Assembly: GCA_024516155.1 (NCBI GenBank)
Contig: JAJJXM010000004.1
Coordinates: 1 to 64,000, forward strand
Origin: Pyronema omphalodes
Taxonomy: Eukaryota; Ascomycota; Pezizomycetes; Pezizales; Pyronemataceae
Direction: 5' to 3'
DNA length: 64,000 bases
The notes beneath the pieces were generated by a model. It did no database searches. It worked only from the letters and a program-made list of their open reading frames with translations, and was not told the DNA's origin. This document shows, in pieces, positions 458 to 47,164 of the stretch. The translations under genes and the position numbers were made by a program. Within the stretch, counting starts at the first letter, position 1, and each line of letters opens with the position of its first letter.

Positions 458-502
458 ACACCACACAGCAACCGCTGACCCCCCCCTGCATTTGCGACAA
501 CA
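458..502 (+). promoter_or_regulatory. Conserved LINE 5' leader box
   Basis: The first about 45 nt (ACACCACACAGCAACCG, then TGACCCCCCCC, TGCATTT and CGACAAC) recur at the 5' ends of LINE-A2, B1-B3, C1, C2, D4 and D7, although sequences further downstream differ between families. It may be an internal promoter or a structured 5' RNA end; the role is unknown. Confidence 0.6.
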
Positions 503-860
503 ACAACAGTTTCCCCGATTTTCGAATCGGCAATCGATTTCTTACCTCCGAATTACCCCGAATCTCGATTTTCGGAACCCAGCTACCGTTTACCGTTGAG
601 ATTCAGCGGAAAAACGCGATTCTGGGACCTCCGGGCCGGATTCCGGGCACTTTCATCAACGCCGCCCCACCACCCGCCCCCCAATCATCAAACCGACCTC
701 ATTTTCGGTTTCGGCATACCGAAATCCCCCCCCCCCCAAATTCCCCCCCCACCAGCAGCACTGGTTGTGGTGATACCCCAAATTTCCCCCCCTCCGGACC
801 CCCTTCCTCGCGAGAAATTTTCGCGCTCGCTTAGCAAGAGCCTCCTCACGTGACTCTTCA

Positions 861-893
861 CCATCGCTTACCGTACCACCGGTTAAGCGATGG
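861..893 (+). promoter_or_regulatory. Hairpin enclosing the ORF1 start codon of LINE-A1
   Basis: CCATCGCTTA (861-870) pairs perfectly with TAAGCGATGG (884-893) across a 13-nt loop. The ORF1 ATG (890-892) lies in the 3' arm. LINE-B has the same stem with a compensatory T-A to C-G change and a different 13-nt loop, which supports a conserved RNA structure. Confidence 0.75.
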
Positions 894-2601: not shown

Positions 2602-5600
2602 CTACAACAGACTGGCAGCAACCATACGGATCGTCTCCCACAACGTGAACCGACAACGATCAGCACTCGATGCGCTGCTGAATAGCGCACACAACACAAG
2701 CCGACATAATCCTAATACAAGAAATTCACATAACCGACATAACATACGCCACCACACACCCCTCTTTCACACTGGTCTTACCACCGCGTGGAGATAGAAC
2801 CACCAACAGAACAGCCGCCTATGTGACCAGGAACAAACCCATACCTCAGGGTTTCTCAACGCACCGATATATGCGCGGATCCTGACCTCCAGGTCCTTGA
2901 GGTAGGTACCGACTTGATTCCTTCTTTCTTTCTTTTAATATATACAACGAAAAACACCCCGAAAGCAACATTTATACCATCCCGAGAGCCCTCACCCCCC
3001 TCCCCCTCCCCCGCAGGTGCATCATCACAGGTGACCTCAACGCTCACCATGCCCTGTGGAACTCCTCCACACGTTCCCCCACCCGCGCCACCGAAATAGT
3101 TGACCTCATCGAACAACGAGACTGGACCCTCGTGTCCGTCCCTGACATTCCCACCTACTACTACAACCAAGGCCGCAGTTCCTCCGTCCTCGACCTGACC
3201 CTAGCATCGCCCCACATGGCAGAGGAAACAACCAACTGGGCAATTGACGACGACAACGCTACGGGATCTGACCACGAAGTCATACGTTTCGAAGTGCACA
3301 CAACCCACCCAGACGTTGAACCAACCCCCCCAACAGACCGACTGAACTGGAAAAAGACGGATTGGGAGCTCTTCGCCGAAACCCTCCGTGCCTCGTGCTC
3401 AGCCCTCACACCATCATGGACACAATACCGCAACCACCCTACCACAGACAACCTCGATAGCGTGGGCGGAGTCAATACGTGACGCCATCCTCAATGCCGC
3501 GACTACGTCCACCCCCGTACTACAAGTGACCCCACAATCGAAAAGATGGTGGACCGCAGAAGTCACCGAGGCAAGGAAAAAGATGACCAAAGCAAGACGT
3601 AAGTGGAAACGCAAACGTGACGATAGATCCCACTTAAACTACAAACAACACCGAAACGAATACCACAGGACCATTCGAACGGCGAAAGATGCAAAGTGGA
3701 AGGAATATCTTTCCCAAGCCGAAGGACCCGATGTGTGGCAGGCGTTTAGGTACACCAACCCTCGGCGTGCTCAGCTAACACCAAACCTCCGCGCAATGAT
3801 AAACGGCCAAGAAACAATCTGCAGCTCCTTCGACGCAAAGGTAGAGGCCTTCCAAAAGTTGTTTCCCCCGCCGCCGCCACCACCGCCTCCGTCCGTCCTC
3901 CCCCCGCGCCGCGAGTTGCAGTGGGCAACCTTTACACCGACAGAGGTAGAAACAGCGATATTCTCCTCCTCGCCGAAGAAAGCGCCCGGACCCGATGGGC
4001 TCACATTCGCCTGCCTACGCCAAGCATACCTTGCCATCCCGGAACACATGAACAACCTCTACGCCACATTAGGGACGGTAGGCTACCATCCGCGATGCTG
4101 GCGCCAGGCCACCACAGTCATTATCGCCAAACCCAACAAGCCGGATTACAGCAATCCAAAGGCATACCGTCCGATTGCGCTCCTAAACTGCCTTGGGAAG
4201 ACCCTCGAAAAACTAATGGCCACTCGCCTAGGCACGATGGCAGACTCTCACGACTTACTACATAGAGACCAAATAGGTGGACGCCCGCAGAGATCAGCAA
4301 TTGACGCGGCGATGGCGCTGGTGCACGACGTCGAGATTGGGAAATCTCACGGAATGCTAACCTCTGCCCTCTTCCTCGATGTTCGTGGAGCGTTCGACAA
4401 CGTCTCTGCTGACCGCCTCCAACAAACATTACGACAACTCGGGTGCCCGAGACCAATAGTATCGTGGTGCCAGTCTTTCCTCGCAGATCGCACGATCGCT
4501 CTGGCGTTCGATGGGCGAACTGACACGCAACGCCCAGTGCAAACAGGCATCCCACAAGGTTCCCCTGCATCCCCCATACTTTTCTTATTGTACCTCCGCC
4601 CATTATTCGACGAACTAGCGAAGACACACCCGTACGCCTGGACACCTAGCTACATTGACGACGTAGCGATCGTCGTCCAGGGACGCACCAGAAAAGCGAA
4701 CGCCCGCGCACTTGAGAACATTACGAAAACAGCCTTTCGGTGGGCCGACGCAAACGCCGTTGCATTTGACGATGCCAAATCAGAGCTCCTGCATTTCCAC
4801 TGGGCACGCACCGACAATATCACTGAGGAGGAAAAAGTTAAGTTACCAAACGGTACAGTTATCACACCGGGAACACAAGGAGGAGAGAAGGATGTTGTGA
4901 GGTGGATAGGCCTGTATTTAGATAGGAAACTTAACTTTAGAAAACATGTAGCTAGACGAGTAACCGCCGCGCAAAGAACTCTGAACGCACTGTGCAGGTT
5001 AGCACGGTACGAAACAGGTCTGTCCCCCGCTGCTACGAGACTAATCTACCAGGCGTGTGTCCAGTCGAGAGCAGACTACGGCGCAGAGATATGGTGGAAC
5101 CAACAAAAAGACCTTGCCCGCACCCTCCAGAATCAACAGAACACCGCCCTCCGCAGGATTCTCAACGCCTTCGCCTCTACTCCGATCCTGGCCCTCCACA
5201 ATGAATCCGCACTCCCTCCCGTCACAATACGTCTTGACAATCGCCAGCGGAAATACGCCCTACGCACCCTCACCCTACCCGCTTCGCACCCTGTCATCAC
5301 ACGCTGCCCCGTCTCGTTTCCCGCCCCGAGTATCGATGATGCCTCCATCAACCCGGACACCGAGTACGACCACCCGTGGCACGTCCCAGGACAAGCCCCG
5401 TCCCGCCTCCTGCACGTCATCAGTACCCTCTCCCCGTGGATCCAACCAAACGCCGAAATCGAAGACACCTCCCAAAACATCCCCGACGATGAGCTCGCCC
5501 CTACATTAACGATCGACATCTCCTCCTCCCCGAAGGCTGACGCTGCCGACGACCACCTCCTCCTCCTCCACGCCCTTCGCCAACGATCGGATACTATCCT

Positions 5601-6516
5601 ACTGTACACGGACGGCTCTCAACTTGACGGCATAACAGGCGCGGGATACACCATCCCCCATGGGCTGCCACGACCTGTAGACTCCATAGTGCCCATGGGC
5701 GACAGAACGGAAGTCTTCGACGCGGAAGTTATGGCCATTCACGAAGGCCTCCGGACATGCCTGAGACATATTCGACGCAACGACCTATACGACAAACACA
5801 TCCACGTTTTCACAGACAACCAGGCCGCTATACATCGAGCCTCTCACCTCCGTCGAGGCCCCGGCCAGGAGCTCGCCTGGGCCATCCACAACACCGCTCA
5901 CGACCTTCACACTTACGGTACCTCAATTACCATCCACTGGGTCCCAGGACACACCAGCGTCCCCGGAAACGAAGCCGCCGACGAACTGGCCCGACAGGCG
6001 ACAACAGTACCGCCACGCCGACGAATACCGATATCCCTCACTTGGCTGCGCCGCCGCGCTCGAGAAAGGTACACCGAAGACTGGGCTACCTGGTTCACCT
6101 CTTCCCCCCGACCGCGCACGTACGCCGCCACTCACCGCCGCAAAATGGACACTGCGTACACCGAAAACCCCCGCTGGATATCAACTGCAATCCTGGGTCT
6201 TCGCACCGGCCACGGGTACTTCCTCAACTGCTTGGCCCACCCTCCATCCGACGCATACCCCTCCCGCAGCTGCAGCTGCCCAATCCACCCACCGCAGACG
6301 CCTCGACACCTCCTCCTGAGCTGCCCGGAATTCCAGGCCGCCCGCTCCACACTCAGGAAGGACCTCAAACTCAGACAACACTCCCGGATCAACCTAAACA
6401 CCATTCTGGACACCCCCTCCGGCACCAAGGCTCTTTCCACCTTTATCTCTGCAACCAAGGTTGCTACCTCGACCTGGGCACACTCCCGGCTAGAGAAGCC
6501 CCGCAGAAGGGGATAG
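2594..6516 (+). pseudogene. LINE-A1 ORF2 (APE endonuclease-RT-RNase H), frameshifted
   Basis: ORF2 starts inside the ORF1 stop (ATGTCTAG), so reinitiation is likely. The N-terminal apurinic-like endonuclease (RIVSHNVNRQ, then GDLNAHH and SDHEVIRF in LINE-A2) is broken here by 1-nt insertions near 2697, 2830 and 3461. From about 3462 to 6516 the frame is open. It holds RT (PKKAPGPDGL, GIPQGSPASP, catalytic SYIDDVAIVV near 4650), RNase H (YTDGSQ, E in DAEVMAIHEG, TDNQAA, and HWVPGHTSVPGNEAADELA, about 5600-6000) and a C-terminal C-x-C-x7-H-x4-C motif near 6265-6330. The RT/RNase H half is the best preserved in the window. The family would use nick-primed reverse transcription in the nucleus. 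Confidence 0.85.
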
Positions 6517-7395
6517 ACCCCTACCGCTGACTACACTGACCGCAGTACCTTAGGACCTTTCGCGCGCGCTGATTTCGCAGTGCTTTCTTACTTAGGATTT
6601 TTGTTTTGTAAAAAAAAAAAAAAAAAAAGGGGACAAGTAGAAGGGGAAGGTAGAAGGGGGATAGGCGGAGAGAAAGGGAACGGGCACGCGGTGACGGGAT
6701 CGGGCTGGGGTCGTTGCTTGGGTCTGCTTGGGGTTCGGGTGTTTTGAGTCTTGCTTTCTTCTTGATTTCTGTTGTTTTTCTTTTCTTTGTCTTTCAATTG
6801 TTTGTCTTACGGGTTGGAGTTGTTTACGGTGCGACGGATGAGAAGGGAACGGAGGGTGGAATGGTGCACAGGAAGGGAGATGAAGGGGACGGAAGGCGAG
6901 GAAGGGCAGACGAGTTTCTTTTGTACTTTCCTTTGTTTGGGTGCGACGATGTTTTTCTTATGTTCGAAGGGCGGGAGGAGTGCGAGGCGCTGCGAAGGGA
7001 GAGTGAGGGGCACGGGGAAGGAGCAGAGGAGGGCAGCGGGAGTTTTTCTTTTTTCTTTTTCTTTCTTTTTCTTTTGTACGCGGAGGAAACAAAGGCGGTT
7101 AAATGGCTAAACATGGGAAGGGGAAGGGAGGAGGAAAGGGAGGAGCCCGGCGAGGCGGCCTCTGTGCAAGCAGGGCACTTGGAACATCAGACGCGCTTGG
7201 ACAAGAAACCCCCGAAGTATACAGTGGGGACAGACCCCACAACCACAACGATCAAGAGGAGGAGACTGGTAGAGGTGGAGACGAGGTTTTTGCTTTTACA
7301 TTTCTTTCTTCTTCTCTTTTGTATTTATCTGTCCCTTGTCATAACCTTCGGGTTGCAAACAAGTAATGAGAGAACAAACAAACAAACAAACAAAC
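6517..7395 (+). other. LINE-A1 3' UTR and (CAAA)n tail
   Basis: No gene is present. The order is a short unique part, A18-19 at 6610-6628, a G/A-rich stretch with T-rich interludes, a block nearly identical to the LINE-C 3' end (from about 7080), the terminal hairpin AACC-TTCG-GGTT at 7343-7354 and the microsatellite tail up to 7395. A C(UUCG)G loop is formed in the RNA. Confidence 0.8.
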
Positions 7396-7396
7396 C

Positions 7397-8410
7397 CGAC
7401 ATTTCGTGAAGTGGGGTAAGCCAAAACTCGTGAAAACTCTGATTTTGCGACAAAAGTCAACAAAAACAACGTAGAATTCCCTGAAAACTCAGAGAATAAC
7501 GTAACAGAGTGCTGCGAATCCGAATCCGATGAGGATCACGTCGACCGAAGCGACACCGGAACCTCACCCTGACAGTCCATCTGCTCAGGACACACCTCTA
7601 CCCGACGCCCCAAGCACTGCCCCTGCTGAGACGAACGGATGGAAGACTGTGGAGGCGAAGGCTACACAGAGGAAGAAGCAGAAAGCGAAGGAGACGACAC
7701 ATACGGCAGCGCCACCCAGCAAGACCCCTACAACAAAGAATGGTGGCCGGGGAAAGAATACCCACCAACCCAGAACGACAACCTCCTCTGCAAAGAAGAC
7801 TTGGGCAGAAGTCGTCAAGAGCGGAGGCATCAACGTCCAGATTGTGCTAGGGAATGGCAATCTTGGACTGACAACACCACCGACAAGAAGGGGAGAGAGG
7901 CGAGGGGGAGCAGCGAGAAGGCTGAGAAAGAAGGAAGAAGAAGGGGAGAGAGGGGAGGAGAAGAGGGGCAGGGCAGGCCCGGGTGTCTCAGAGGGCAAAG
8001 AGTCAGGAGACACCGGCGGAGGAGGTGAGAGAGGGGAGGAGAGCGGGGGCACGGGTGGCCCGGAGGCTGTTTAACTTTGCTTTGGTTTCGTTTTTGCTTT
8101 GTGGAGGAAATAAAGGAGGACAAATGGTTAAAAATGGGAGGGGAAGGGAGGAGGAAAGGGAGGAGCCCGGCGAGGCGGCCTCTGTGCAAGCAGGGCACTT
8201 GGAACATCAGACGCGCTTGGACAAGAAACACCCGTAGTAACAGTGGGGACAGACCCCACAACCACAACGATCAAGAGGAGGAGACTGGTAGAGGTGGAGA
8301 CTGGGTTTTTGCTTTTACATTTCTTTCTTCTTCTCTTTTGTATTTATCTGTCCCTTGTCATAACCTTCGGGTTGCAAACAAGTAATGAGAGAACAAACAA
8401 CAAACAAACA
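7397..8410 (+). mobile_element. LINE-C3, 5'-inverted and internally deleted copy
   Basis: Positions 7397-7533 are the reverse complement of the LINE-C 5' UTR just upstream of its start codon (compare 14769-14905). At 7533/7534 the sequence switches to the forward strand in the 3' third of the LINE-C gene and runs to the hairpin (8362-8373) and (CAAA)n tail. An inverted 5' piece joined to a direct 3' piece, with the part between them lost, matches the twin-priming product known from L1 elements. Confidence 0.8.
7534..8074 (+). pseudogene. LINE-C3 ORF1-like gene, C-terminal fragment
   Basis: This is the last about 180 codons of the LINE-C protein, from TSTEATPEPHPDSP through TWAEVVKSGGINVQIVLGNG to a Gly/Glu/Arg-rich end. 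It matches 16849-17385 of LINE-C1. The start codon and the coiled-coil half are missing because of the 5' inversion, so no product is expected. The Arg/Glu/Gly tail reads a purine-rich stretch like that in the 3' UTRs of other LINEs here. Confidence 0.8.
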
Positions 8411-12984: not shown

Positions 12985-14975
12985 TTTGTTTGTTTGTTTG
13001 TTTATTCATTACTCGTATGCAACCTTATTGGTTATGACGAGGGTACAGGTTTATAGTACATGGAAAGTCAAAAGCAAAAACAAAACAAAGTCCCGTCTCT
13101 ACCTCCGCTGATCCTCCCTTAGGCTGTGATTTTGTGGTCCTGTCCCCACTATTACTTCGTTGGTCCTGTTGTCCAACCGCGTCTGCTGTTCCAGTGCCCT
13201 GTTCGCACAGAGGCCACCGCGCAGGGTGTCCCCTCTATCCTCCACCCTTCCCCTCCCACTTTTAACCATTTTTCCGCCTTTATTTCCTCCACAAAGCAAA
13301 AACGTAACCAAAGCAAAGTTAAACAGCCGCCGGGCCACCTGCGCCCCCACTCTCCTCTCCTCTCTCAACTCCTCCGCTGGTGTCTCCTGGCTCTTTGCCC
13401 TTTGAGACACCCGGGCCAGCCCTGCCCCTCTTCTCCTCCCCTCTCTCCCCTTCTCCCGCCTTCTTCCTCAGCCTTCTCGCTGCCCCGCCTCGCCTCTCTC
13501 CCCTTCTTGTCGGTGGTGTTGTAAGTCCAAGATTGCCATTCCCAAGCACAATCTGGACGTTGATGCCTCCGCTCTTGACGACTTCTGCCCAAGTCTTCTT
13601 TGCGGAGGGGGTTGTCTGTCTGGGTTGGTGGGTATTCTTTCCCCCTCCACCATTCTTCGTTGTAGGGGTCTGTTTGGGTGTCGCTGCCGTAGATCTCGTC
13701 TCCTTCGCTTTCATCTTGTTCTTCTGTGTAGCCTTTGCCTCCACAGTCCTCCATCCGTTGGTCTCAGCAGGGGCAGTGCTTGGGGCGTCGGGTGGAGGTG
13801 TGTCCTGAGCAGATGAACTGTCAGGGTGAGGTTCCAGTGTCGCTTCGGTCGACGTGATTGCGAGGAGAGGTAGGGGGGACGTAAGCTTGAGAGCATCAAG
13901 CTTGTCCTGGGCGGCGGTAGTTGCATATTTCGAGTGCATCAGGCTTCGCACCGGTGATGCAGCTCTCGGTTTGTGGTTGACCGGTGCTCTGGTCGTTGGT
14001 GAGGTGGGTTCGGTGTTCTGGTCGCTTCCCCTTCGCTTTCTCTTGCGAGGAGGGTTGGAGACAGCGTCCAGGACATCCTGAATGTCATGTTGGACGACAG
14101 ACAGTTGCATAGTCATCTCTTCCATCGCTCAGGAAGAGGCCGTAAGGTTCGGTGAGAGGGGCGCCGAGATGACTTGTTGCTGTTCGTCGATTTTCTTCGT
14201 CAGGGCGTCCACAGCAGCCTTGAGAGCTGCTGTTTCTGCCTGTGTAGAGTCGTATGCTGCGCGCAGCTTCGTGTTTTCGCCGGTCAGAATGTCGAAGTTC
14301 GTCATCATGACGTCGAATGTGTGGCGCATCTCATCGCTGTTGTTGCGTATGGTGTCATCGAGGGTATTGAAGCGTCGCTGTGTATCCCGGTGGATCTGTT
14401 GTATCCCCAGGAAGCTTGCTCTTGTGAAAAGCGGTTCATGTTCACAGAACAGGGCGCTCAAGCTGCTATCGTTGTCGTCTTTTTCGATAGCGTCTCGCAT
14501 AGCAATAACCAGATCGCGGCGAAATTCTCTGAATCGGTTGTGCTCAGGTGTCGCTTGCTGCTGGTGTGTTGAAGCCGAAGGAACTGGTGATCCTGCCAAG
14601 ACCACGCTCTGGAAGGGCTTTTCAGCGACATTTCCATCAACTTCATCAACTTTTCCATCTCTTTCATCAAATGTAGGACTAGATCCATCATGAGGAAGGT
14701 CGGCTAGAACATTGTACGCGTTTTCGGACCGTTTCGATCGTCTGGCGTTGTTCTGTCGTTGTTTTGGCGACATTTCGTGAGGTGGGGTAAGCCAAAACTC
14801 GTGAAAACTCTGATTTTGCGACAAAAGTCAACAAAAACAACGTAGAATTCCCTGACAATTCAGAGAATAACGTAACAGAGTGCTGCGAATCCGAATCCGA
14901 TGAGAAAACCGGGGGTTTCGGTGCTCGTTGTTGAGAATGCAGGGGGGGGTCGCCGTTGCCGTGTGGTGTGCTGAG
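12985..14975 (-). mobile_element. LINE-C2, full-length ORF1-only element with one nonsense codon
   Basis: Minus-strand order: the conserved 5' leader (CACACCACACGGCAACGG at about 14975), the 5' UTR, an ORF1-like gene, a 3' end with GGAAATAAAGG, a terminal hairpin with an altered loop (AACC-AATAA-GGTT, 13021-13033) and a (CAAA)n tail. Length is about 2.0 kb, like LINE-C1. No RT or endonuclease is present. At its 5' end it carries a further LINE-C fragment (14976-15183) and then meets LINE-B1 head-to-head. Confidence 0.85.
13319..14773 (-). pseudogene. LINE-C2 ORF1-like coiled-coil protein gene, one premature stop
   Basis: The start is the ATG at 14773 (MSPKQRQNNARRSKRSEN), shared with LINE-C1. 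The protein has a variable N-terminal cassette (NRFREFRRDLVIAMRDAIEK), a heptad-like region (IQQIHRDTQRRFNTLDDTIR through TKLRAAYDSTQ and ALTKKIDEQQQ) that is probably coiled coil, then a basic KRKRRGS stretch, a linker and TWAEVVKSGGINVQ. One TGA at about 14126-14128 replaces the TCA serine of LINE-C1, so the copy is broken by a single base change. An RNA-binding ORF1p role is inferred from position and composition. Confidence 0.8.
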
Positions 14976-15183
14976 CTTTCTCTGTTGTCCTGGTTCACAC
15001 CTAACAACGTGAGGGCACTAATGCGTGAGTGGTTCACTGCCAGTGATCGGTCCAGGCGCGCTTCATTACATGCTCCATATTTTTCAATGATGAACTGGAT
15101 CATTTCGCGGCGCCACATATGCAGCGATCGGGTAGTTGTTGCTTGTTGCGGGTCTGTTGAAGCCGAAGGGACTGGTGATCCTA
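14976..15183 (-). pseudogene. LINE-C ORF1 fragment fused to the LINE-C2 5' end
   Basis: Minus-strand codons SPVPSAS through RSLHMWRREMIQFIIEKYG to LLGVNQDNRE match the N-terminal cassette of LINE-C4 (35514 start). They then run directly into the LINE-C2 leader. The piece contains the empty Gypsy-1 target site GTGAG at 15009-15013. The same junction recurs at 36548-36723 and 46991-47163, where an LTR sits at that site. Confidence 0.8.
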
Positions 15184-15585
15184 AACACACCACACAGCAA
15201 CCGCTGAGCCCCCCCTGCATTTTCGACAACAACCTCAAATTTCCCGGCTCTGCCGACGGAAATGGCTTTATCGTGCTCAGTTTACCCCAGTCCCGATTTC
15301 CAGGCCCGAATTCCCGTTTACTGTTGAGTTTCAGCGGAAAAACGCGATTCTGGGACCTCCGGACCGGTCAACGGGCCTTTCCAGCAACGCCGCCTCACCA
15401 CCCGCCCTCCGATCATCATACAAACCTCATTGTCAGTTTCGGCATACCGAATTCCCCCCCTCCCCGACTTCCCCTTTCGCCAGCAGCACTGGTTGTGGTG
15501 GACCCCAAAATGTCCCCCCTATCGGACCCCCTCTCCTCGCGAAAATTTTCTGTCGCTGAAACAGAGCCTCTCACGTCACCCGTAG

Positions 15586-15618: not shown

Positions 15619-15731
15619 ACGCTAACTCGTCCCTCCCGCCGACCCCCTCGCTTATGCAGGTACCAGTTGACACCTGCAGCCCTGCCACCCAAGTTCCGAC
15701 AACCCCAACCCACCAAATCATAGCCATCGAT
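15615..15731 (+). pseudogene. LINE-B1 ORF1, exon-like first piece
   Basis: Codons MDANSSLPPTPSLMQVPVDT and onward, up to the insertion of LINE-C1. The remainder of the gene lies at 17730-18321 and 25240-26144. The start is identical to that of LINE-B2 and B3. Confidence 0.8.
15719..15731. repeat. Target-site duplication of LINE-C1 (left copy)
   Basis: CATAGCCATCGAT is repeated exactly at 17717-17729 right after the LINE-C1 tail. The uninterrupted sequence is seen in LINE-B2 and B3. The 13-bp length is typical of APE-type LINE insertion. Confidence 0.9.
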
Positions 15732-17716
15732 ATCCTCCACACAACACATCACACGGCAACGGCGACCCCCCCCCTGCATTCTCAACAACGAGCACCGAAA
15801 CCCCCGGTTTTCTCATCGGATTCGGATTCGCAGCACTCTGTTACGTTATTCTCTGAATTTTCAGGGAATTCTACGTTGTTTTTGTTGACTTTTGTCGCAA
15901 AATCAGAGTTTTCACGAGTTTTGGCTTACCCCACCTCACGAAATGTCGCCAAAACAACGACAGAACAACGCCCAACGATCGAAACGGTCCGAAAACGCGT
16001 ACAATGTTCTAGCCGACCTTCCTCATGATGGATCTACTCCTACTTTTGATGGAAGAGATGGAAAAGTTGATGAAGTTGATGGAAACTTCGCTGGAAAACC
16101 CTTCCAGAGCGTGGTCTTGGCACGATCACCAGTTCCTTCGGCTTCAACATCGCAGCAACAGGCGACAACTGAACACAGCCGGTTTAGTAACTACCGTCGC
16201 TTAATGGTATCTGCAATTAATAAGGCAGTCGCAGTTGACGACAACTATGCCACCCTAGATCAACTGTTTATAGACAACTACGCCGAATTCACTGGAGCCA
16301 GCTTCCTGGGGATACAACAGATCCACCAGGACACACAGCGCCGCTTCAATACCCTCGATGACACCATACGCAACAACAGCGATGCGATGCGCCTCAGATT
16401 CGACGTCATGATGACGAAATTCAACATTCTGACCGACGACAACACGAAGCTGCGCGCAGCCTACGACTCTACACAGGCAGTCAAGGCTGCTGTGGACGCC
16501 CTGACGAGGAAAATCGACGAACAGCAACAAGTCATCTCGGCGCCCCCCTCACCGAACCTCACGGCCTCTTCCTCAGCGATGGAAGAGATGACTATGCAAC
16601 TGTCCGTCGTCCAACATGACATTCAGGATGTCCTGGACGCTGTTCGCAACCCTCCTGGCAAGAGAAAGCGAAGGGGAAGCGACCAGAACACCGAACCCAC
16701 CTCACCGACAAACAGAAGACCGGTGAACCACAACCCGAGAGCGGCATCACCGGTGCGAAGCCTGATGCACTCAAAACATGCGACTACCGCCGCCCAGGAC
16801 AAGCTTGATGCCCTCAAGCCTATGTCCCCCCTACCTCTCCTCGCGATCACGTCGACCGAAGCGACACCGGAACCTCACCCTGACAGTCCATCTGCTCAGG
16901 ACACACCTCTACCCGACGCCCCAAGCACTGCCCCTGCTGAGAGCGACGGATGGAAGACTGTGGAGGCAAAGGCTAAACAGAGGAAGAAGCCGAAAGCGAA
17001 GGGGACGACACCTACGGCAGCGACACCCAGCAAGACCCCTACAACAAAGAATGGTGGCCGGGGAAAGAATACCCACCAACCCAGAACGACAACCTCCTCT
17101 GCAAAGAAGACTTGGGCAGAAGTCGTCAAGAGCGGAGGCATCAACGTCCAGATTGTGCTTGGGAATGGCAATCTTGGACTGACAACACCACCGACAAGAA
17201 GGGGAGAGAGGCGAGGGGGAGCAGCGAGAAGGATGAGGAAGAAGGAAGGAGAAGGGGAGAGAGGGGAGGAGAAGAGGGGCAGGGCGGGCCCGGGTGTCCC
17301 AAAGGGCAAAGAGTCAGGAGACACCAGCGGAGGAGGTGAGAGAGGAGAGGAGAGTGGGGGCACGGGTGGCCCGGCGGATGTTTAACTTTGCTTGAGTTTC
17401 GTTTTTGCTTTGTGGAGGAAATAAAGGAGGAAAAATGGTTAAAAATGGGAGGGGAAGGGAGGAGGAAAGGGAGGAGCCCGGCGAGGCGGCCTCTGTGCAA
17501 GCAGGGCACTTGGAACATCAGACGCGCTTGGACAAGAAACCCCCGTAGTAACAGTGGGGACAGACCCCACAACCACAACGATCAAGAGGAGGAGACTGGT
17601 AGAGGTGGAGACTGGGTTTTTGCTTTTACATTTCTTTCTTCTTCTCTTTTGTATTTATCTGTCCCTTGTCATAACCTTTGGGTTGCAAACAAGTAATGAG
17701 AGAACAAACAAACAAA
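15732..17716 (+). mobile_element. LINE-C1, complete ORF1-only non-autonomous LINE
   Basis: This 1,985-bp element is flanked by 13-bp target-site duplications, so both ends are certain. It has the common 5' leader, a 5' UTR, one open gene without RT or endonuclease, and a 3' end. The last about 300 bp nearly match the LINE-A 3' UTR, including GGAAATAAAGG, the hairpin AACC-TTTG-GGTT (17673-17684) and a (CAAA)n tail. The shared 3' end suggests it is mobilised by LINE-A enzymes, as HAL1-type or SINE elements use a partner LINE. Four other LINE-C copies or fragments lie in the window. Confidence 0.9.
15943..17385 (+). CDS. LINE-C1 ORF1-like coiled-coil basic protein (480 aa), intact
   Basis: The ATG at 15943 (MSPKQRQNNAQRSKR) was chosen because it aligns with the ATGs of LINE-C2 and C4; the frame is open a further 17 codons upstream without ATG. 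Order: a basic start, an acidic segment, a variable cassette (SRFSNYRRLMVSAINKAVAV), a likely coiled coil (about residues 110-190), the basic KRKRRGS, a second basic segment rich in K/T, TWAEVVKSGGINVQIVLGNG, and an Arg/Gly/Glu-rich tail. The tail seems to be translated 3' UTR-like polypurine sequence, as if ORF1 had been joined to a 3' UTR by deletion of ORF2. It has no CCHC knuckle, unlike ORF1 of A, B and D. Function as an RNA-packaging ORF1p is inferred. Confidence 0.8.
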   Translation: MSPKQRQNNAQRSKRSENAYNVLADLPHDGSTPTFDGRDGKVDEVDGNFAGKPFQSVVLARSPVPSASTSQQQATTEHSRFSNYRRLMVSAINKAVAVDDNYATLDQLFIDNYAEFTGASFLGIQQIHQDTQRRFNTLDDTIRNNSDAMRLRFDVMMTKFNILTDDNTKLRAAYDSTQAVKAAVDALTRKIDEQQQVISAPPSPNLTASSSAMEEMTMQLSVVQHDIQDVLDAVRNPPGKRKRRGSDQNTEPTSPTNRRPVNHNPRAASPVRSLMHSKHATTAAQDKLDALKPMSPLPLLAITSTEATPEPHPDSPSAQDTPLPDAPSTAPAESDGWKTVEAKAKQRKKPKAKGTTPTAATPSKTPTTKNGGRGKNTHQPRTTTSSAKKTWAEVVKSGGINVQIVLGNGNLGLTTPPTRRGERRGGAARRMRKKEGEGERGEEKRGRAGPGVPKGKESGDTSGGGERGEESGGTGGPADV

Positions 17717-17729
17717 CATAGCCATCGAT

Positions 17730-18321
17730 CCCACCTCTGCCATGTCCACCGACCCCCTCGCCCGCGCAGACGCCCCTCACGCAGGCACATCCTCCATCAT
17801 CGCCCCCTCCCGCAGAAAGCCCACCTCCTCTTCTACCCGCAACACCGGCCGCCTCAGCAGAATCTGCATATCCGAAATCAACCTCCTCCGACGCACTGCC
17901 GGGGAAATGAGACGTGCCATCATCGCACACCTCGATAACATCCCCGCCATGCGCAACCCCGACAACACTCCTGCCCTGCCAGACCCCATCGACATCGACT
18001 CCGACACCGACCTTGACAACGAAGAGGAATACGAATCAACACTCCAGCCAAGAGGCGAATTCCTCACCACCATTGCCACCATGATCTCGAGAACCACCAA
18101 CGACGCCCTCCACCCTATAGTACAATCCATCGATACCATCAACAGACGACTCGACAAAATCACCAAACCCAGCCAACTTCCATCGCAACAGCCCCAGCAA
18201 CAGCCCCACCCCGGACCGACAACCAATGCCACCCCACCCCCCGACGATCTCCAGCATTGGAAGAAGCGATGCCGAATGCTGGAAGCCACCCTCCGACACC
18301 ATAATATCCCCCTACCGACCT
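17730..18321 (+). pseudogene. LINE-B1 ORF1, second piece
   Basis: It resumes LINE-B ORF1 (PTSAMSTDPLARADAPHAGT) and runs to PTDL..., where LINE-A2 interrupts it. The region is Pro/Arg/Ser-rich with an acidic DIDSDTDLDNEEEYE patch and a short helical ISRTTNDALHPIVQSIDTIN stretch that is also present in LINE-A ORF1. It matches LINE-B2 and B3 closely. Confidence 0.8.
18308..18321. repeat. Target-site duplication of LINE-A2 (left copy)
   Basis: CCCCCTACCGACCT recurs at 25226-25239 immediately after the LINE-A2 tail. LINE-B2 and B3 have the uninterrupted site with one base difference. Confidence 0.88.
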
Positions 18322-18751
18322 ACCGCAAGTGACCCCACAATCGAAGAGACACAGCGACCGCTGACCCCCCCCCTGCATTTGCGACAACAACAACAATTTC
18401 CCCGATTTTCGAATCGGCAACCGATTTCTTACCTCGGAATTACCCCGAATCTCGATTTTCGGAACCCAGCTACCGTTTACCGTTGAGATTCAGCGGAAAA
18501 ACGCGATTCTGGGACCTCCGGGCCGGATTCCGGGCACTTTCATCAACGCCGCTCCACCACCCGCCCCCCAATCATCAAACCGACCTTATTTTCGGTTTCG
18601 GCATACCGAAATCCCCCCCCCCCCCCCAAATCCCCCCCCCCACCAGCAGCACTGGTTGTGGTGATCCCCCAAATTTCCCCCCCTCCGGACCCCTTTCCTC
18701 GCGAGAAATTTTCGTGCTCGCTTAGCAAGAGCCTCCTCACGTGACTCTTCG

Positions 18752-18784
18752 CCATCGCTTACCTCACCACCGGTTAAGCGATGG
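18752..18784 (+). promoter_or_regulatory. ORF1 start-codon hairpin of LINE-A2
   Basis: The arms CCATCGCTTA (18752-18761) and TAAGCGATGG (18775-18784) are intact while the 13-nt loop differs from LINE-A1 at several positions. The ATG is at 18781. Confidence 0.75.
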
Positions 18785-20490
18785 ACGCTAACGCACCCAT
18801 CCCCGCCACGCCCTCGCGTATGCAGGTACCCGAGAATATTTTTAGCCCCGACGAGCTTTCCCAAATCAACGCCCCGCACGCTGGCTCCTCCTCCATCGCG
18901 ACCTCTAAGAAATCAACGACCGTCTCCGGAAAAGTCACCAAACCCCCCGCCAAAAAATCCGCCTCTAGACGTGACCTCGACCTCCTCCGCAAAAATGTCA
19001 CCCGACCGAAAACAAACACCCACGTGAACCTCGATGGGACCCCCGTCGAAACAATGCTGACCGCCATGGACACTGACAGCTGCCCCGACACCGACTCCGA
19101 ATCCGACTCTGACCTGAACCTCAACGACAGCCAGCACGCAATAACTGCTTCCGACGTCAACCCCAACCCCCAGCCTCAGCCCGACAACGACCTCCTCTCA
19201 GCCATCGCCACCATGATTTCGAAAAACACCAACGACGCGCTCCGACCTATTGTCCATTCCATCGCCACCATCAACAAAAGACTCGACAAAATCACAAAAC
19301 CCAACCCGCCCCCTCCGACACAGCCCCAACGTCAACCCCACCCCGAACAAACGACCACCGCCAACTCACCCCCCGACGACCTCCAATACTGAAAAGAACG
19401 ATGCCGACTCCTGGAAAACGCCCTTCGCCACCACAACATCGCCATACCGAACTCCACCACTACTCGCCGCCACAACCCCCCCACGACCACTCACCAGCCG
19501 TGGACCTCCGGCACAACCGTCGCTGACCTCTCCTTCCCCGCCCACGCCCCCAAAAGCAACCCCCCCGCAAAACCGCACCCCCGACGCCAACGCACCCGCC
19601 CCCAGGAAATCCTCCTGCCCTGCCCCAACCCTGCGGAAATCGACGTCAATACCAAAGCCCAACTGGGAAGGGCGATCAACGCTGCACTCACCCAGACGCA
19701 GGCGCCGCCTCACATGGCTGTCGCCACGATCAGACAAGCCTCATCAGGAAACCTCATCGTGACCATGACAGACGGCACCACTGAATCCGAGCTGACCAAG
19801 AACCTAGGGACCATACACACAGCGACGCAACAGGTCAACACCTCCATCGCCGCACCCCGCCTGAACGAGCGGTGGTATAAGCTCGCAGTTCATGGAATCC
19901 CCACGAGCCAATACCCCGACTCCCCCGACGGAATGCGCCTCCTCCAAGAGGAGATCGAACGCAGCAACGGACATGTCACCCTGGCGCAGCCCCCGCGATA
20001 TATGACGACCGCGGAGAAACGTGTGGGCAAGGAAGCGTCCAGTGTGGTTATTGCGGTACGTACCGCCGAAGAGCTCGCACTCCTGAAGCGCAAACGAGTC
20101 ATGGTACTCTTCGAGCCCCGAAGAGTCACCGAGTACCACTCTGCCCGACGGACCGACCAGTGTCGGCGCTGCTTGCTCTTTGGCCACCACTACACCAACT
20201 GCACTGGACCGCAAGGCCCCACCTGCGGCATCTGCGGCCAGAACCACCCCACAGACGACCACGCCTGCAACGACTGCCCCCAAAGCAAAGGTAAGAGTTG
20301 TGAACACACTAGATACCATTGCAAAAACTGCGCGGACGCCAACCTCCCCGACCTCGACCACCCAGGCTTCAGCAAGCAATGCCCCGTACGCATCCGCATA
20401 TTCAAAGAAGCCTGGACAGCGTCACAAAACCCCGACGCCGCCCCACCCAACCCAGCCGACAGAGACACTGAGATGAACGCCCATGTCTAG
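18781..20490 (+). pseudogene. LINE-A2 ORF1 (CCHC protein), one nonsense codon
   Basis: This copy shows that LINE-A ORF1 is one reading frame of about 570 codons. Apart from TGA at 19390-19392 (TGG in LINE-A1) the frame appears to run from 18781 to the stop at 20490. The C-terminal part from about 19714 has IDVNTKAQLG before it and the CRRCLLFGHHYTNC knuckle, followed by CGICGQNHPTDDH and CNDCP pairs. The N-terminal half is Pro-rich. The last 8 nt overlap ORF2. It binds element RNA by family analogy. Confidence 0.8.
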
Positions 20491-23400
20491 CTACAACAGA
20501 CTGGCGGCAACCATACGGATCGTCTCCCACAACGTGAACCGACAACGAACAGCACTCGATGCGCTGCTGAATAGCGCACACAACACAGCCGACAAAATCC
20601 TAATACAAGAAATTCACATAACCGACATAACATACGCCACCACACACCCATCTTTCACACTGGTCTTGCCACCGCGTGGAGATAGAACCACCAACAGAAC
20701 AGCCGCCTATGTGACCAGGACAAACCCATACCTCAGGGTTTCTCAGCGCACCGATATATGCGCGGATCCTGACCTCCAGGTCCTTGAGGTAGGCACCGAC
20801 TTAATTCCTTCTTTCTTTCTTTTTAATATATACAACGAAAAACACCCCGAAGGCAATATTTATACCATCCCGAGAGCCCTCACCCCCCTCCCCCTCCCCC
20901 GCAGGTGCATCATCACAGGTGACCTCAACGCTCACCATGCCCTGTGGAACTCCTCCACACGTTCCCCCACCCGCGCCACCGAAATAGTTGACCTCATCGA
21001 ACAACGAGACTGGACCCTCGTGTCCGTCCCTGACGTTCCCACCTACTACTACAACCAAGGCCGCAGTTCTTCCGTCCTCGACCTGACCCTAGCATCGCCC
21101 CACATGGCAGAGGAAACAATCAACTGGGCAATTGACGACGACAACGCTACGGGATCTGACCATGAAGTCATACGTTTCGAAGTGCACACAACCCACCCAG
21201 ACGCTGAAACAACCCCCCCAACAAACCGACTGAACTGGAAAAAGACGGATTGGGAGCTCTTCGCCGAAACCCTCCGTGCCTCGTGCTTAGCCCTCACACC
21301 ATCATGGACACAATACCGCAACCACCCTACCACAGACAACCTCGATGCGTGGGCGGAGTCAATACGTGATGCCATCCTTAATGCCGCGACTACGTCCACC
21401 CCCGTACTACAAGTGACCCCACAATCGAAGAGATGGTGGACCGCAGAAGTCACCGAGGCGAGGAAAAAGATGACCAAAGCAAGACGTAAGTGGAAACGCA
21501 AACGTGACGATAGATCCCACCTAAACTACAAACAACACCGAAACGAATACCACAGGACCATTCGAACGGCGAAAGACGCAAAGTGGAAGGAATATCTTTC
21601 CCAAGCCGAAGGACCCGATGTGTGGCAGGCGTTTAGGTACACCAACCCTCGGCGTGCTCAGCTAACACCAAACCTCCGCGCAATGATAAACGGCCAAGAA
21701 ACAATCTGCAGCTCCTTCGACGCAAAGGTAGAGGCCTTCCAAAAGTTGTTTCCCCCCGCCGCCGCCACCACCCGCCTCCGTCCGTCCTCCCCCCGCGCCG
21801 CGAGTTGCTGTGGACAACCTTTACACCGACAGAGGTAGAAACAGCGATATTCTCCTCCTCGCCGAAGAAGGCGCCCGGACCCGATGGGCTCACATTCGCC
21901 TGCCTACGCCAAGCATACCTTGCCATCCCCGAACACATGAACAACCTCTGCGCCACATGAGGGACGGTAGGCTACCATCCGCGATGCTGGCGCCAGGCCA
22001 CCACAGTCATTATCGCCAAACCTAACAAGCCGGATTACAGCAATCCAAAGGCATACCGTCCGATTCCGCTCCTAAACTTCCTTGGGAAGACCCTCGAAAA
22101 ACTAATGGCCACTCGCCTAGGCACGATGGCAGACTCTCACGACTTACTACATAGGGACCAAATAGGTGGACGCCCGCAGAGATCAGCAATTGACGCGGCG
22201 ATGGCGCTGGTGCACGACGTCGAGATTGGGAAATCTCACGGAATGCTAACCTCTGCCCTCTTCCTCGATGTTTGTGGAGCGTTCGACAACGTCTCTGCTG
22301 ACCGCCTCCAACAAACATGACGACAGCTTGGGTGCCCGCGACCAGTAGTATCGTGGTGCCAGTCTTTCCTCGCAGATCGCACGATCGCTCTAGCGTTCGA
22401 TGGGCGAACTGACACGCAACGCCCAGTGCAAACAGGCATCCCACAAGGTTCCCCTGCATCCCCCATACTTTTCTTATTATACCTCCGCCCATTCTCGACG
22501 AACTAGCGCAGGTACACCCGTACGCCTGGACACCTAGCTACATTGACGACGTAGCGATCGTCGTCCAGGGACGCACCAGAAAAGCGAACGCCCGCGCACT
22601 TGAGAACATTACGACAACAGCCTTTCGGTGGGCCGACGCAAACGCCGTTGCATTTGACGATGCCAAGTCAGAGCTCCTGCATTTCCACTGGGCACGCACC
22701 GACAGCATCACTGAGGAGGAAAAAGTTAAGTTACCAAACGGTACAGTTATCACACCGGGAACACGAGGAGGAGAGAAGGATGTTGTGAGGTGGATAGGCC
22801 TGTATTTAGATAGAAAACTTAACTTTAGAAAACATGTAGCTAGACGAGTAACCGCCGCGCAAAGAACTCTGAACGCACTGTGTAGGTTAGCACGGTACGA
22901 AACAGGTCTGTCCCCCGCTGCTACAAGACTAATCTACCAGGCGTGCGTCCAGTCGAGAGCAGACTACGGCGCAGAGATATGGTGGAACCAACAAAAAGGA
23001 CTTGCCCGCACCCTCCAGAATCAACAGAACACCGCCCTCCGCAGGATTCTCAACGCTTTCACCTCTACTCCGATCCTGGCCCTCCACAATGAATCCGCAC
23101 TCCCCCCCGTCACAATAGGTCTTGACAACCGCCAGCGGAAATACGCCCTGCGCACCCTCACTCTACCCGCTTCGCATCCTATCATCACACGCTGCCCCGT
23201 CTCGTTTCCTGCCCCGAGTATCGAGGAAGCCTCCATCAACCCGGACACCGAGTACGACCACCCGTGGCACGTCCCAGGACAAGCCCCGTCCCGCCTCCTG
23301 CACGTCATCAGCACCCTCTCCCCGTGGGTCCAACCAAACGCCGAAATCGAGAACACCTCCCAAAACATCCCCGATGACGACCTCGCCCCTACATTAACGA

Positions 23401-24404
23401 TCGACATCTCCTCCTCCCCGAAGGCTGTAGCTGCCGACGACCACCTCCTCCTCCTCCACGCCCTTCGCCAACGATCGGATACTATCCTACTGTACACGGA
23501 CGGCTCCCAACTTGACGGCATAACAGGCGCAGGATACACCATCCCCCACGGGCTGCCACGTCCTGTCGACTCCATAGTGCCCATGGGCGACAGAACAGAA
23601 GTCTTCGACGCGGAAGTTATGGCCATCCACGAAGGACTCCGGACATGCCTGACACATATTCGACGCAACGACCTATACGACAAACACATCCACGTTTTTA
23701 CCGACAACCAATCCGCGATACGTCGAGCCTCTCACCTCCGTCGAGGCCCCGGCCAGGAGCTCGCCTGGGCCATCCACAACACCGCTCACGACCTTCACAC
23801 CTACGGTACCTCAATTACCATCCACTGGGTCCCAGGACACACTAGCGTCCCCGGAAACGAAGCCGCCGACGAACTGGCCCGACAGGCGACAACAGTACCG
23901 CCACGCCGACAACTACCGATATCCCTCACTTGGCTGCGCCGCCGCGCTCGAGAGAGGTACACCGAAGACTGGGCTACCTGGTTCACCTCTTTCCCCCGAC
24001 CGCGCACATACGCCGGCACACACCGCCGCAAAATGGACACTGCGTACACCGAAAACCCCCGCTGGATATCAACTGCAATCCTGGGTCTTCGCACCGGCCA
24101 CGGGTACTTCCTCAACTGCTTGGCCCACCCTCCATCCGACGCATACCCCTCCCGCAGCTGCAGCTGCCCAATCCATCCACCGCAGACGCCTCGACACCTC
24201 CTCCTGAGCTGCCCCGACTTCCAGGCCGCTCGCTCCACACTCAGGAAGGACCTCAAACTCAGACAACACTCCCGGATCAACCTAAACACCATTCTGGACA
24301 CCCCCTCCGGCACCAAGGCTCTTTCCACCTTTATCTCTGCAACCAAGGTTGCCACCTCGACCTGGGCACACTCCCGGCTAGAGAAGCCTCGCAGAAGGGG
24401 ATAG
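20483..24404 (+). pseudogene. LINE-A2 ORF2 (APE endonuclease-RT-RNase H), broken in RT
   Basis: The endonuclease is intact here (20483 to about 21200: RIVSHNVNRQ, IQEIHITD, TGDLNAHHALW, SVLDLTLASP, GSDHEVIRF). The frame is lost by an extra C near 21755. The RT segment has TGA codons at about 21958 and 22318, where LINE-A1 has TTA, and a 2-nt loss near 22493. From 22785 to 24404 the frame is open again and covers the region after the YIDD box, RNase H and the C-terminal CSCPIHPPQTPRHLLLSCP motif. Lesions lie in different places from LINE-A1. Confidence 0.85.
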
Positions 24405-25225
24405 ACCCCCACCGCTGACTACACTGACCGCAGTACCTTAGGAACTTTCGCGCGCGCTGATTTTGCAGTGCTTTCTTACTTAGGATTTCTGTTTTGTAAA
24501 AAAAAAAAAAAAGGGGACAAGCAAAAGGGGAAGGTAGAAGAGGGATAGGCGGAGGGAAAGGGAACGGGCACGCGGTGACGGGATCGGGCTGGGGTCGTCG
24601 CTTGGGTCTGCTTGGGGTTCGGGTGTTTTGAGTTTTCTTTTCTTTGTCTTTGAATTGTTTGTCTTACGGGTTGGAGTTGTTTTATGGTACGGCGGGTGGG
24701 AAGGGAACGGATGGTGGAATGGTGCACAGGCAGGGAGATGACGTGGACGGCAGGCGAGAGAGGGCAGACGAGTTTCTTTTGTACTTTCCTTTGTTTGGGT
24801 GCAATGATGTTTTTCTTATGTTCGAAGGGCGGGAGGAGTGCGAGACGCTGCGAAAGGAGAGAGAGGGGCGCGGGGAAGGGGCAGAGGAGGACGACGGGAG
24901 TTACCTTTTCTTTTGTACGCGGAGGAAACAAAGGCGGTAAAATGGCTAAACATGGGAAGGGGAAGGGAGGAGGAAAGGGAGGAGCCCGGCCAGGCGGCCT
25001 CTGTGCAAGCAGGGCACTTGGAACATCAGACGCGCTTGGACAAGAAACCCCCGTAGTATACAGTGGGGACAGACCCCACAACCACAACGATCAAGAGGAG
25101 GAGACTGGTAGAGGTGGAGACTGGGTTTTTGCTTTTACATTTCTTTCTTCTTCTCTTTTGTATTTATCTGTCCCTTGTCATAACCTTCGGGTTGCAAACA
25201 AGTAATGAGAGAACAAACAAACAAA
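24405..25225 (+). other. LINE-A2 3' UTR and tail
   Basis: No gene is seen. The stretch holds an A14 run, purine-rich blocks, a block nearly identical to the LINE-C 3' end from about 24905, the terminal hairpin (25182-25193) and (CAAA)n. It aligns along its whole length with 6517-7395, with several short deletions. Confidence 0.8.
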
Positions 25226-25239
25226 CCCCCTACCGACCT

Positions 25240-26144
25240 CCACCACCCCCCGCCGCCAGAACCCACCAGCAACGAACAACCCAGCAGCACCTGAGACCAG
25301 CAGAAACGCAGCAAACGACCTCCTCTCCTCCGACCACGCCCCTCGACGCACCCCGAATGCACGCCCAACCCCACCACCATCCTGACCGCGCCCCCAATCC
25401 ATCATCATACCGTGCACCAACCCCTCTGAACTCAACGTGAACACCAGGGTCAGCGTAGGACTCGCCGTCAACACCGCTTTGGCTAAGACCCGGGCTCCAC
25501 CTCACATGGGGGTAACTATGTTAAGACAAACTGCGAACGGGAACCTTATGCTAACCATGTCGGACAACACAACTGAGGCGGAGCTGACGGAGAACTTAGC
25601 TACGATACAGGAAGCCACAAAGACAGTCCACACCTCCCTATCCGAACCCCTCCTGAACGAGCATTGCTACAAGCTCGCCGTTCACGGCATCCCCACAGAA
25701 CTAAACCCCGACACCCCTGAGGGCATGCGCCTCCTACAGGAGGAAATGGAACACAACAACAGCCCGGTGACCCTGACGCATCCTCCCCGCTACATGACCA
25801 GTCCAGAGAAACGTGCAGGTAAGAGCGCATCGAGTGTGGTAATCGCAGTGAGAACAACCGAAGAGCTGGCATTTCTGAAGCGCAGAAAGGTCATGGTACT
25901 CTTCGAACCCCGAAGAATCACAGAATTCCACTGCGCGAGGAAGACCGACCAGTGTCGGCGGTGCCTGCTCTTCGGCCACCACCCCTCCAACTGCACAGGA
26001 GCTCGAGGACCCGTATGCGCCCTCTGCGACCAGGACCCCTCCACGGACGCCCACACATGCTCCGAATGCCCCCAGAAAAGATGTAAAAGCAGCGAACACA
26101 CCCAATATCAATGGAAGAACTCGCGTAGACTGAGGCCTCACTGA
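25240..26144 (+). pseudogene. LINE-B1 ORF1, third piece (CCHC half)
   Basis: It continues LINE-B ORF1 after LINE-A2. An in-frame TGA lies near 25385, at the same place as in LINE-B2 and B3, then SVGLAVNTALAKTRAPPHMG leads to the knuckle CRRCLLFGHHPSNC and further Cys/His pairs (CALCDQDPSTDAHTC). A frameshift after SSEHTQYQWKN ends the frame at 26144 although homologous codons (EHDHPG) continue in another frame up to the LINE-D3 insertion. No LINE-B ORF2 is present. Confidence 0.8.
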
Positions 26145-47163: not shown

Positions 47164-47164
47164 T

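Follow-up and report, generated by a model that had tools for sequence, protein, structure and literature searches.

LINE-C of Pyronema omphalodes: an amplified protein-coding element without reverse transcriptase that carries the 3′ ends of three LINEs

The genome of the ascomycete Pyronema omphalodes contains an amplified family of non-long terminal repeat (non-LTR) elements, here called LINE-C, which encodes a protein of its own, lacks a reverse transcriptase (RT) and ends in the 3′ sequence of one of three long interspersed nuclear elements (LINEs), named LINE-A, LINE-E and LINE-F. Judging from the identity of these tails and their linkage to RT genes, LINE-C is quite probably copied by the second open reading frame (ORF2) proteins of at least these three LINEs. 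The family was recognised through its complete copy C1 in a 64,000-nt stretch of DNA, hereafter the window (positions 1 to 64,000 of contig JAJJXM010000004.1, assembly GCA_024516155.1), and was followed through the whole assembly (60.8 Mb, 232 contigs). A first-pass annotation of the window had taken LINE-C for a parasite of LINE-A. The A-type end on which this was based is real, but LINE-C is not bound to LINE-A, as it also carries LINE-E and LINE-F ends.

Structure of element C1

C1 is a complete RT-less element of 1,985 bp with an A-type tail (15,732–17,716, forward strand), delimited by target-site duplications, empty sites and full-length relatives. The 13-bp duplication CATAGCCATCGAT can be read directly on the left (15,719–15,731) and again on the right (17,717–17,729), its leading C being ambiguous with the tail. 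The host of the insertion is a LINE here named LINE-B, and alignment and reading locate two empty sites, each with the 13-mer once in an uninterrupted counterpart of the host: one at 37,259–37,271 (forward strand) in another LINE-B copy, the other near 47,701–47,713 in the same window. The first-pass annotation had fixed both ends of C1 by the exact duplications, and the two empty sites now add to this.

The layout of C1 is simple, and all of its parts lie on the forward strand. A 5′ segment (15,746–15,819) resembles LINE 5′ ends, with 73–81% identity over 47–74 bp to the sites at 458, 15,184, 18,349, 36,723 and 47,166. The single ORF runs from the ATG at 15,943 to the stop at 17,385 and has 480 codons (484 in most copies); ORF reading and a Pfam search agree with the earlier description of one intact 480-aa gene and no RT. 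The ORF is followed by a hinge (GTGGAGGAAATAAAGG..ATGGTTAAAAATGGGAGGGGAAGGG, 17,410–17,459), which alignments recognise in LINEs A, D, E and F, and by the A-type tail (17,446–17,716), in which RNA folding gives a terminal two-tier hairpin, CUUGU..AACC[UUUG]GGUU..ACAAG (17,665–17,693). Over about 300 bp the 3′ end is near-identical to two LINE-A copies of the window, A2 (97%, element positions 1683–1985) and A1 (94%, 1666–1985), hairpin and (CAAA)n repeat included, as had been noticed at first pass.

Amplification and absence of ORF2

LINE-C is an amplified family. A DNA search with C1, in which the best 40 of 847 candidate places were scored and 77 pieces listed, gave at least 34 full-length copies, C1 included, spanning the query from position 21 or lower to 1984 or higher. 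Markers taken from the body count pieces as well as full copies: one of 22 bases matched 452 genome sites at up to two mismatches and a second matched 425, with none for reversed controls. The amplification suggested from the window thus holds at about 450 body-marker sites in the full assembly. In a protein search, 79 of the best 89 matches scored (of 933 candidates) were stop-free over the matched stretch. Two deep subfamilies can be told apart, alpha, which includes C1, and beta, with 12 near-complete ORFs at 96% identity or more among the 88 rows of a search with the protein P0008.

The copies bear LINE-type insertion marks, namely duplications of variable length, a (CAAA)n 3′ repeat and empty sites. 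An exact flanking repeat of 9–18 bp accompanies 14 of 31 distinct full-length copies, more than chance would give, since only 4.6% of mismatched flank pairs reach 9 bp. Insertion junctions are ambiguous with the A/C-rich tail. 5′ truncation and inversion also occur, as in window copy C2, with an inverted 5′ piece, and L085, which consists of the last 349 bp only.

In most of the duplication-bearing copies (among L001–L038), the duplication is separated from the shared 5′ end by up to 20 extra bases. LINE-C copies are crowded, often one within another, in a few repeat clusters (C189:1145763-1198931, C193, C208, C211 and C220), which one may speculate to be centromeric or otherwise silenced. Two consecutive telomere repeats were found at none of 30 LINE-C loci (about 1.3–1.5 kb per side, less at contig ends) and nowhere in the window.

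Full-length copies with an ORF2 between the gene and the 3′ end, which the first-pass annotation had named as the finding that would make C1 a deletion product of an autonomous element, were looked for among the 41 bodies readable downstream and not found. Forty of these lead directly to a tail (A in 33, F in five, E in two), and the remaining one is interrupted by a LINE-E insertion; eight further bodies, all E-tailed, were set aside as their locus ends within 330 nt. In searches with C1 and with L029, 34 listed rows each align unbroken from the 5′ end to the tail. By these readable bodies, LINE-C lacks the ORF2 with RT in cis that defines an autonomous LINE. A separate search with the RVT_1 family (150 rows) showed a gypsy-type element in the window, and the 30 loci taken from it contained no stretch of LINE ORF2 reaching 60 aa. 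Derivation of C1 from LINE-A by deletion was considered and rejected, because its body matches A1 only in about 75 bp of 5′ end, in about 300 bp of 3′ end and in 25 bp that fall within the flank of A1, further and shorter matches having E above 0.01.

Three tail types and the LINEs that own them

One LINE-C body can wear an A-type, E-type or F-type end, and in its final 250 bp each tail shows 94–100% identity to the corresponding LINE. At up to one mismatch, tail markers matched 330 (A), 200 (E) and 104 (F) sites genome-wide and none in reversed controls. Among the first 100 alpha bodies listed, the A marker lies at 975–991 nt in 37, the E marker at 1003–1004 nt in 11 and the F marker at 1085–1088 nt in six, the A and E lists in these counts being exact matches only.

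The E type is represented by L029, a LINE-C body with a (TAAA)n tail. A search with the whole of L029 gave at least 34 rows (of the best 40) spanning positions 8 or lower to 1976 or higher, and its last 301 bases matched at 98–100% in all 40 places scored (the best 40 of 929 candidates). Such an E-tail match starts 35–36 nt past the matched ORF end in 10 of the 12 beta ORFs; it is the E-type end, not the A-type, that occurs on both deep subfamilies. A random 20 of the first 100 listed E-tail sites comprised eight LINE-C and 12 LINE-E. The ORF2 C-terminus is coded at 11 of these 12 LINE-E sites, with 78–81% identity to LINE-D, the minus-strand LINE that ends at about 27,468 and 50,532 in the window, and the sequence upstream of the LINE-E tail is 70–78% identical to the end of LINE-D ORF2 and its untranslated region (UTR). 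The labels LINE-B and LINE-D used here may not be those of the first-pass annotation. F tails are found on L018, L035, window copy C3 and one copy each in L004 and L034, and L034 also holds a LINE-F in which an ORF2 C-terminus is followed by the F tail (98.1%).

To link tails with enzymes, RTs were collected with a 160-aa piece of the LINE-D RT (best 150 of 747 candidates) and classed by identity, the tail counts being restricted to RTs within the listed contig range. The E marker lies 2,336–2,365 nt downstream of 29 of the 43 RTs in the 77–81% (E) class, many of which belong to open frames 1,335 codons long (1,341 in the longest). Near other RTs it occurs in none of 31 of the LINE-D class, neither of two at 73–76% and one of 15 of the LINE-A class, this last at another distance (2,923 nt) and next to a LINE-C ORF. 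The A marker lies 2,302–2,347 nt downstream of six of 11 A-class RTs and of none of 28 E-class or 17 D-class RTs, and the F marker 2,204 nt downstream of one RT. By this linkage, the A, E and F tails belong to RT-bearing LINEs. LINE-D was considered as the source of the (TAAA)n tail and rejected, since its five tails in the window are only 81–84% identical to that sequence and none of 31 D-class RTs carries it.

Tail exchange at and beyond the hinge

When LINE-C is compared with the matching LINE in 50-nt steps from the 3′ end, the first five steps are 94–100% identical, the sixth 84–92% and those beyond 16–60% (six pairs). Comparison of LINE-C copies with different tails gives the reverse, with 26–82% in the last five steps and 84–100% beyond (two pairs). 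The drop falls at the purine-rich hinge common to LINEs A, D, E and F, and the junction of the exchange lies within it or just past it. In C1 the sequence is E/D-like as far as ATGGG and A-like after it.

Such exchanges have recurred. On a maximum-likelihood tree of 44 LINE-C bodies the tail type changes at least six times, with E on the deep branches and a clade of 34 rows that carries A tails apart from one E and three F. The E tails of alpha and beta copies (three and two rows, six pairs) are 97–98% identical, while the bodies upstream of them share 57–78%, and a search found beta E tails 98–99% identical to the tail of one alpha copy. Tails so alike on bodies so far apart indicate that the tail is younger than the body and was renewed, either from the LINE or from one copy to another. 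Over the last ~600 bp the two subfamilies are also 92–100% identical, and they differ upstream, so exchange is not restricted to the hinge. The tails of L018 and L035 are mosaics, A-like at their start and F-like from the middle on, which likewise places exchange points outside it.

A shared terminal hairpin

The tails share a terminal hairpin. The A tail folds as CUUGU..AACC[loop]GGUU..ACAAG and the F tail as CUCGU..AACC..GGUU..ACGAG, so that one pair of the outer stem differs on both sides between them (covariation); D and E tails fold as CGC..AACC..GGUU..GCG. LINE and LINE-C tails of a type have the same loop: UUCG or UUUG in all 37 A tails, UUAC in all 24 E tails and AAUAA in five of six F tails, the sixth (L004) having a base change in the stem. 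In the LINE-F tail of L034, GGUC replaces GGUU. The z-scores of these folds are modest (−0.98 to −2.55, and −0.50 for the E tail).

In the stringent-type tail recognition of the zebrafish LINEs ZfL2-1 and ZfL2-2, the cognate ORF2 is reported to recognise the stem generally and the loop specifically (PMC4176376). The tails described here are similar in that the stem is shared and the loops differ between A, E and F. They are unlike ZfL2-1 and ZfL2-2 in that LINE-D and LINE-E share a loop, and their LINEs, with RT plus RNase H, belong to another clade.

The LINE-C protein

Most LINE-C genes are intact. Among 30 distinct full bodies the frame has 484 codons in 25 and 480 in C1, which is 12 nt shorter, in frame, than the other copies; it is broken in the remaining four (L005, L008, L028 and C3). 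Structure prediction (mean predicted local distance difference test, pLDDT, 53) places helices at about residues 69–97, 102–197 and 210–235 and leaves the rest mostly disordered. The C-terminal half is basic and disordered, the isoelectric point is 9.7, and C1 has no cysteine. The protein is therefore predicted by the model to be a helical rod with a basic disordered tail.

The CCHC motif CX2CX4HX4C is absent from all 39 aligned family members and the C1 protein is free of cysteine, so the lack of a CCHC knuckle reported at first pass extends to these members. A Pfam search with the C1 protein returned nothing at 0.1, the best being one weak match (E 0.21), and neither an RNA recognition motif (RRM) nor a knuckle was among the 25 families shown of the 45 weak Pfam families for the 39 members. 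Pfam and PDB matches were discarded as a guide to identity, being weak, largely to coiled-coil proteins and naming nothing. A search of a plasmid collection gave no match, and neither tblastn nor profile comparison showed similarity to the ORF1 pieces of LINE-A and LINE-B (LINE-E and LINE-F ORF1 were not compared). Of 171 relatives, the 120 that were listed are all P. omphalodes proteins or JGI proteins, the latter with 44–71% identity.

Rates of substitution point to constraint. Between an alpha copy (L037) and two beta fragments (L015 and L079), the ratio of nonsynonymous to synonymous rates (omega) is 0.43 over 295 codons and 0.33 over 239 codons. It falls to 0.06 in residues 205–250, where the synonymous rate is near saturation (dS 2.2), and reaches 1.0 in residues 55–150, where alpha and beta can hardly be aligned (17% identity). 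Within alpha there are 269 nonsynonymous (N) and 155 synonymous (S) differences against an expected 2.55:1 (p 0.0002), and shared variants alone (77:48) also lie below expectation (p 0.018). By these measures the LINE-C protein is under purifying selection. Residues 55–150 vary even within alpha, between a P0001 type and a C1 type.

Proposed mechanism and alternative explanations

The ORF2 proteins of LINE-A, LINE-E and LINE-F would copy LINE-C by target-primed reverse transcription, each recognising the 3′ end of its own family, and LINE-C would gain access to a LINE by acquiring the last ~250–300 nt of that LINE. Most simply, reverse transcription would begin at the 3′ end of a LINE RNA and jump at the hinge to a LINE-C RNA; such template switching is preferred, the 3′ end being the starting point of target-primed synthesis. 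The LINE-C protein may oligomerise through its rod and use its basic tail to coat, in cis, the RNA that encodes it, and the coat may help that RNA to compete for ORF2. A role in cis is suggested by the selection on the protein.

Several points weigh against this account. No clear flanking duplication accompanies 17 of the 31 full-length copies, and 46 of the 100 listed alpha bodies have none of the three listed tail markers. The body tree came from a quick search and includes several partial rows. UUAC, the E loop, is carried by four of five LINE-D tails, which argues against a strict loop code; because D and E loops are mostly the same, the loop alone cannot tell LINE-D from LINE-E. Loci L009–L038 were chosen by protein score, which favours intact frames. 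Shared and singleton variants within alpha have similar N:S ratios (Fisher p 0.66), so the within-alpha signal of selection is weak, and residues 60–115 and 300–484 are without constraint there. RNA binding by the protein is a prediction from its charge and the model with pLDDT 53.

As an alternative to template switching, tails may have been exchanged by DNA recombination or gene conversion between neighbours in the dense nested clusters, which we consider somewhat unlikely. The close nesting of copies and the hinge that the repeats have in common would both favour conversion, and so would the likeness of alpha and beta at 92–100% over the last ~600 bp and the A/F mosaic tails of L018 and L035. 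Against this, the junctions fall repeatedly at one hinge close to the 3′ end, the place at which target-primed synthesis sets out; moreover, 14 of 31 copies (nearly all A-form) have target duplications, and the A and E forms have each been amplified. Conversion is still compatible with both of these observations.

LINE-C could also be a remnant of the HAL1 kind, the ORF1 of an autonomous LINE after loss of its ORF2, with the parent extinct or unsampled and the tails shared by descent or conversion. We regard this as unlikely, while noting that it concerns the origin of LINE-C and is compatible with the borrowing mechanism. It would account for the likeness of the C1 5′ end to LINE 5′ ends and for the homology of hinge and 3′ UTR with LINEs A, D, E and F, and a coiled coil with a basic region is a common ORF1 layout. 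However, the protein is unlike the LINE-A and LINE-B ORF1 pieces with which it was compared, and no RT-bearing parent appears among the 41 bodies readable downstream.

Less probable still, LINE-C would be a passenger resembling a short interspersed nuclear element (SINE), with a protein that serves another purpose, such as countering host silencing, or nothing current. The protein has no known domain and residues 55–150 show no visible constraint (omega 1.0), as might be expected of a passenger; yet 26 of the 30 full bodies are intact (partly picked by protein score), and residues 205–250 and the C-terminus are constrained between the subfamilies. In an element present in hundreds of copies, such intactness and constraint find their best explanation in selection at each round of copying, through an effect of the protein on its own RNA. 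That the chimaeras are misjoined repeats or products of nesting in a repeat-rich assembly of 232 contigs is hardly credible, given tail sites by the hundred with none in reversed controls, body–tail combinations that recur at the constant spacings given above on several contigs, and the flanking duplications and empty sites.

The preferred reading remains that of an RT-less protein-coding element copied by several LINEs. LINE-C resembles a half-LINE in having its own protein and a borrowed enzyme, and a SINE in its borrowed tail; assignment to either class would go beyond the sequence evidence. A stronger version, in which LINE-C is an independent protein-coding lineage that is not derived from its helpers, recaptures the 3′ ends of active LINEs and, by coating its RNA in cis, wins their ORF2 in competition with the RNAs of those LINEs, is a tentative proposal that we would put at a little short of even. 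If this were true, any conflict with the helpers or the host would be played out in residues 55–150, which are unconstrained and subfamily-specific.

Other LINE-C copies and neighbouring LINEs in the window

Sequence comparison supports the three relatives of C1 listed at first pass. C2 (7,397–8,404, forward strand) consists of an inverted 5′ piece (7,397–7,533, minus strand) joined to 7,534–8,404 (forward strand) with an A-type tail; this 5′-inverted, twin-primed type of copy directly follows LINE-A copy A1, starting where A1 has its 3′ end (7,386–8,404). C3 (12,989–14,973, minus strand) has its F-type tail at 12,989–13,250 and an ORF broken at codon 214. C4 (34,531–35,717, minus strand) is 83% identical and is without the 3′ part.

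The LINEs of the window, which we take to be Tad1-like, have RT plus RNase H. Two LINE-A copies lie on the forward strand: A1 (458–7,386), the partner for the A-type tail, with RT and RNase H at 3,388–6,516 and an ORF1 at 1,723–2,601 that carries a CCHC motif, and A2 (18,349–25,225), 96% identical to A1, with an endonuclease frame at 20,483–21,838. A LINE-B ORF1 is found at 37,155–38,009, in another LINE-B copy than the host of C1. A2 (18,309–18,349 and 25,220–25,245) and LINE-C copy L038 share the target sequence CCCCCTACCGACC. This is what a shared endonuclease would give, and it is a single coincidence. Just 5′ of A1, positions 433–457 are identical over 25 bp to LINE-C positions 1185–1209; either the target of A1 was a LINE-C fragment, or A1 may have taken up these 25 bp at its 5′ junction; both are possibilities only. 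Antisense relics of the variable protein segment of P0001 type are present at 14,975–15,193, 36,544–36,732 and 46,987–47,214 (all minus strand). They adjoin LINE-B 5′ ends, so LINE-B has probably inserted into LINE-C there.

Comparison with known elements and implications

Several RT-less elements invite comparison with LINE-C. HAL1 of mammals uses the ORF2 of L1. It is a non-autonomous LINE derivative of several origins with an ORF1-type protein only (PMC5753468). LINE-C is similar in having no RT and carrying the 3′ end of a helper LINE, and differs in that its protein matches neither LINE ORF1 compared, whereas that of HAL1 is of L1 ORF1p type, and in that its ends come from at least three LINEs, not one. 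In MoTeR2 of the fungus Magnaporthe oryzae the RT region is replaced by unrelated sequence, and 860 bp at the 5′ end and 77 bp at the 3′ end are shared with MoTeR1, whose RT is like those of SLACS and CRE1; MoTeR2 is embedded in telomeres and its middle is described as having "no obvious function" (PMC7367193). Like LINE-C it is a fungal non-LTR element without RT that has terminal sequence in common with an RT-bearing element. Unlike MoTeR2, which has one partner, LINE-C has three, with a conserved ORF, and lies outside telomere repeats at the loci examined.

HeT-A of Drosophila likewise encodes a protein, Gag, and no RT, and collaboration with TART is given as the most parsimonious explanation of its movement; its Gag is closely similar to the TAHRE Gag and is directed to telomeres (PMC5537684). 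In contrast, the insertions of LINE-C lie elsewhere and have target duplications, and its 3′ ends are those of several LINEs. SINEs are short elements that code for no enzymes (PMC7983390). Among them, the CORE-SINEs combine one core with different tails, of L2 in Ther-1, L3 in Ther-2, RTE in Mar-1, RSg-1 in HpaI and UnaL2 in UnaSINE, Ther-1 and Ther-2 occurring in the same hosts (PMC3747384). LINE-C is like them in the near-identity of its 3′ end to the partner LINE and in having several tails on one body. It is unlike them in its length of 2 kb, its conserved ORF and the occurrence, within a single genome, of three tails on bodies that share about 90% or more of their sequence.

The RT-less relatives compared here (HAL1, HeT-A and MoTeR2) are each bound to one helper system, and a core combined with tails of different LINEs is a feature of SINEs, which have no protein; LINE-C joins both traits in one genome. 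In the open-licence PMC texts we found no description of a LINE-C family or of a protein-coding LINE with the tails of several partners. LINE-C bears on the origin of new helper relations, which may arise by a template jump at the hinge, and on whether an ORF1-like protein can be separated from the enzyme-supplying LINE. A warning follows as well, in that a tail match does not identify the origin of an element. Near-identical bodies with three tails, together with long open ORF2 frames in the matching LINEs, amount to a natural swap experiment on the choice of RNA by ORF2, and LINE-C makes tail capture and partner choice directly testable.

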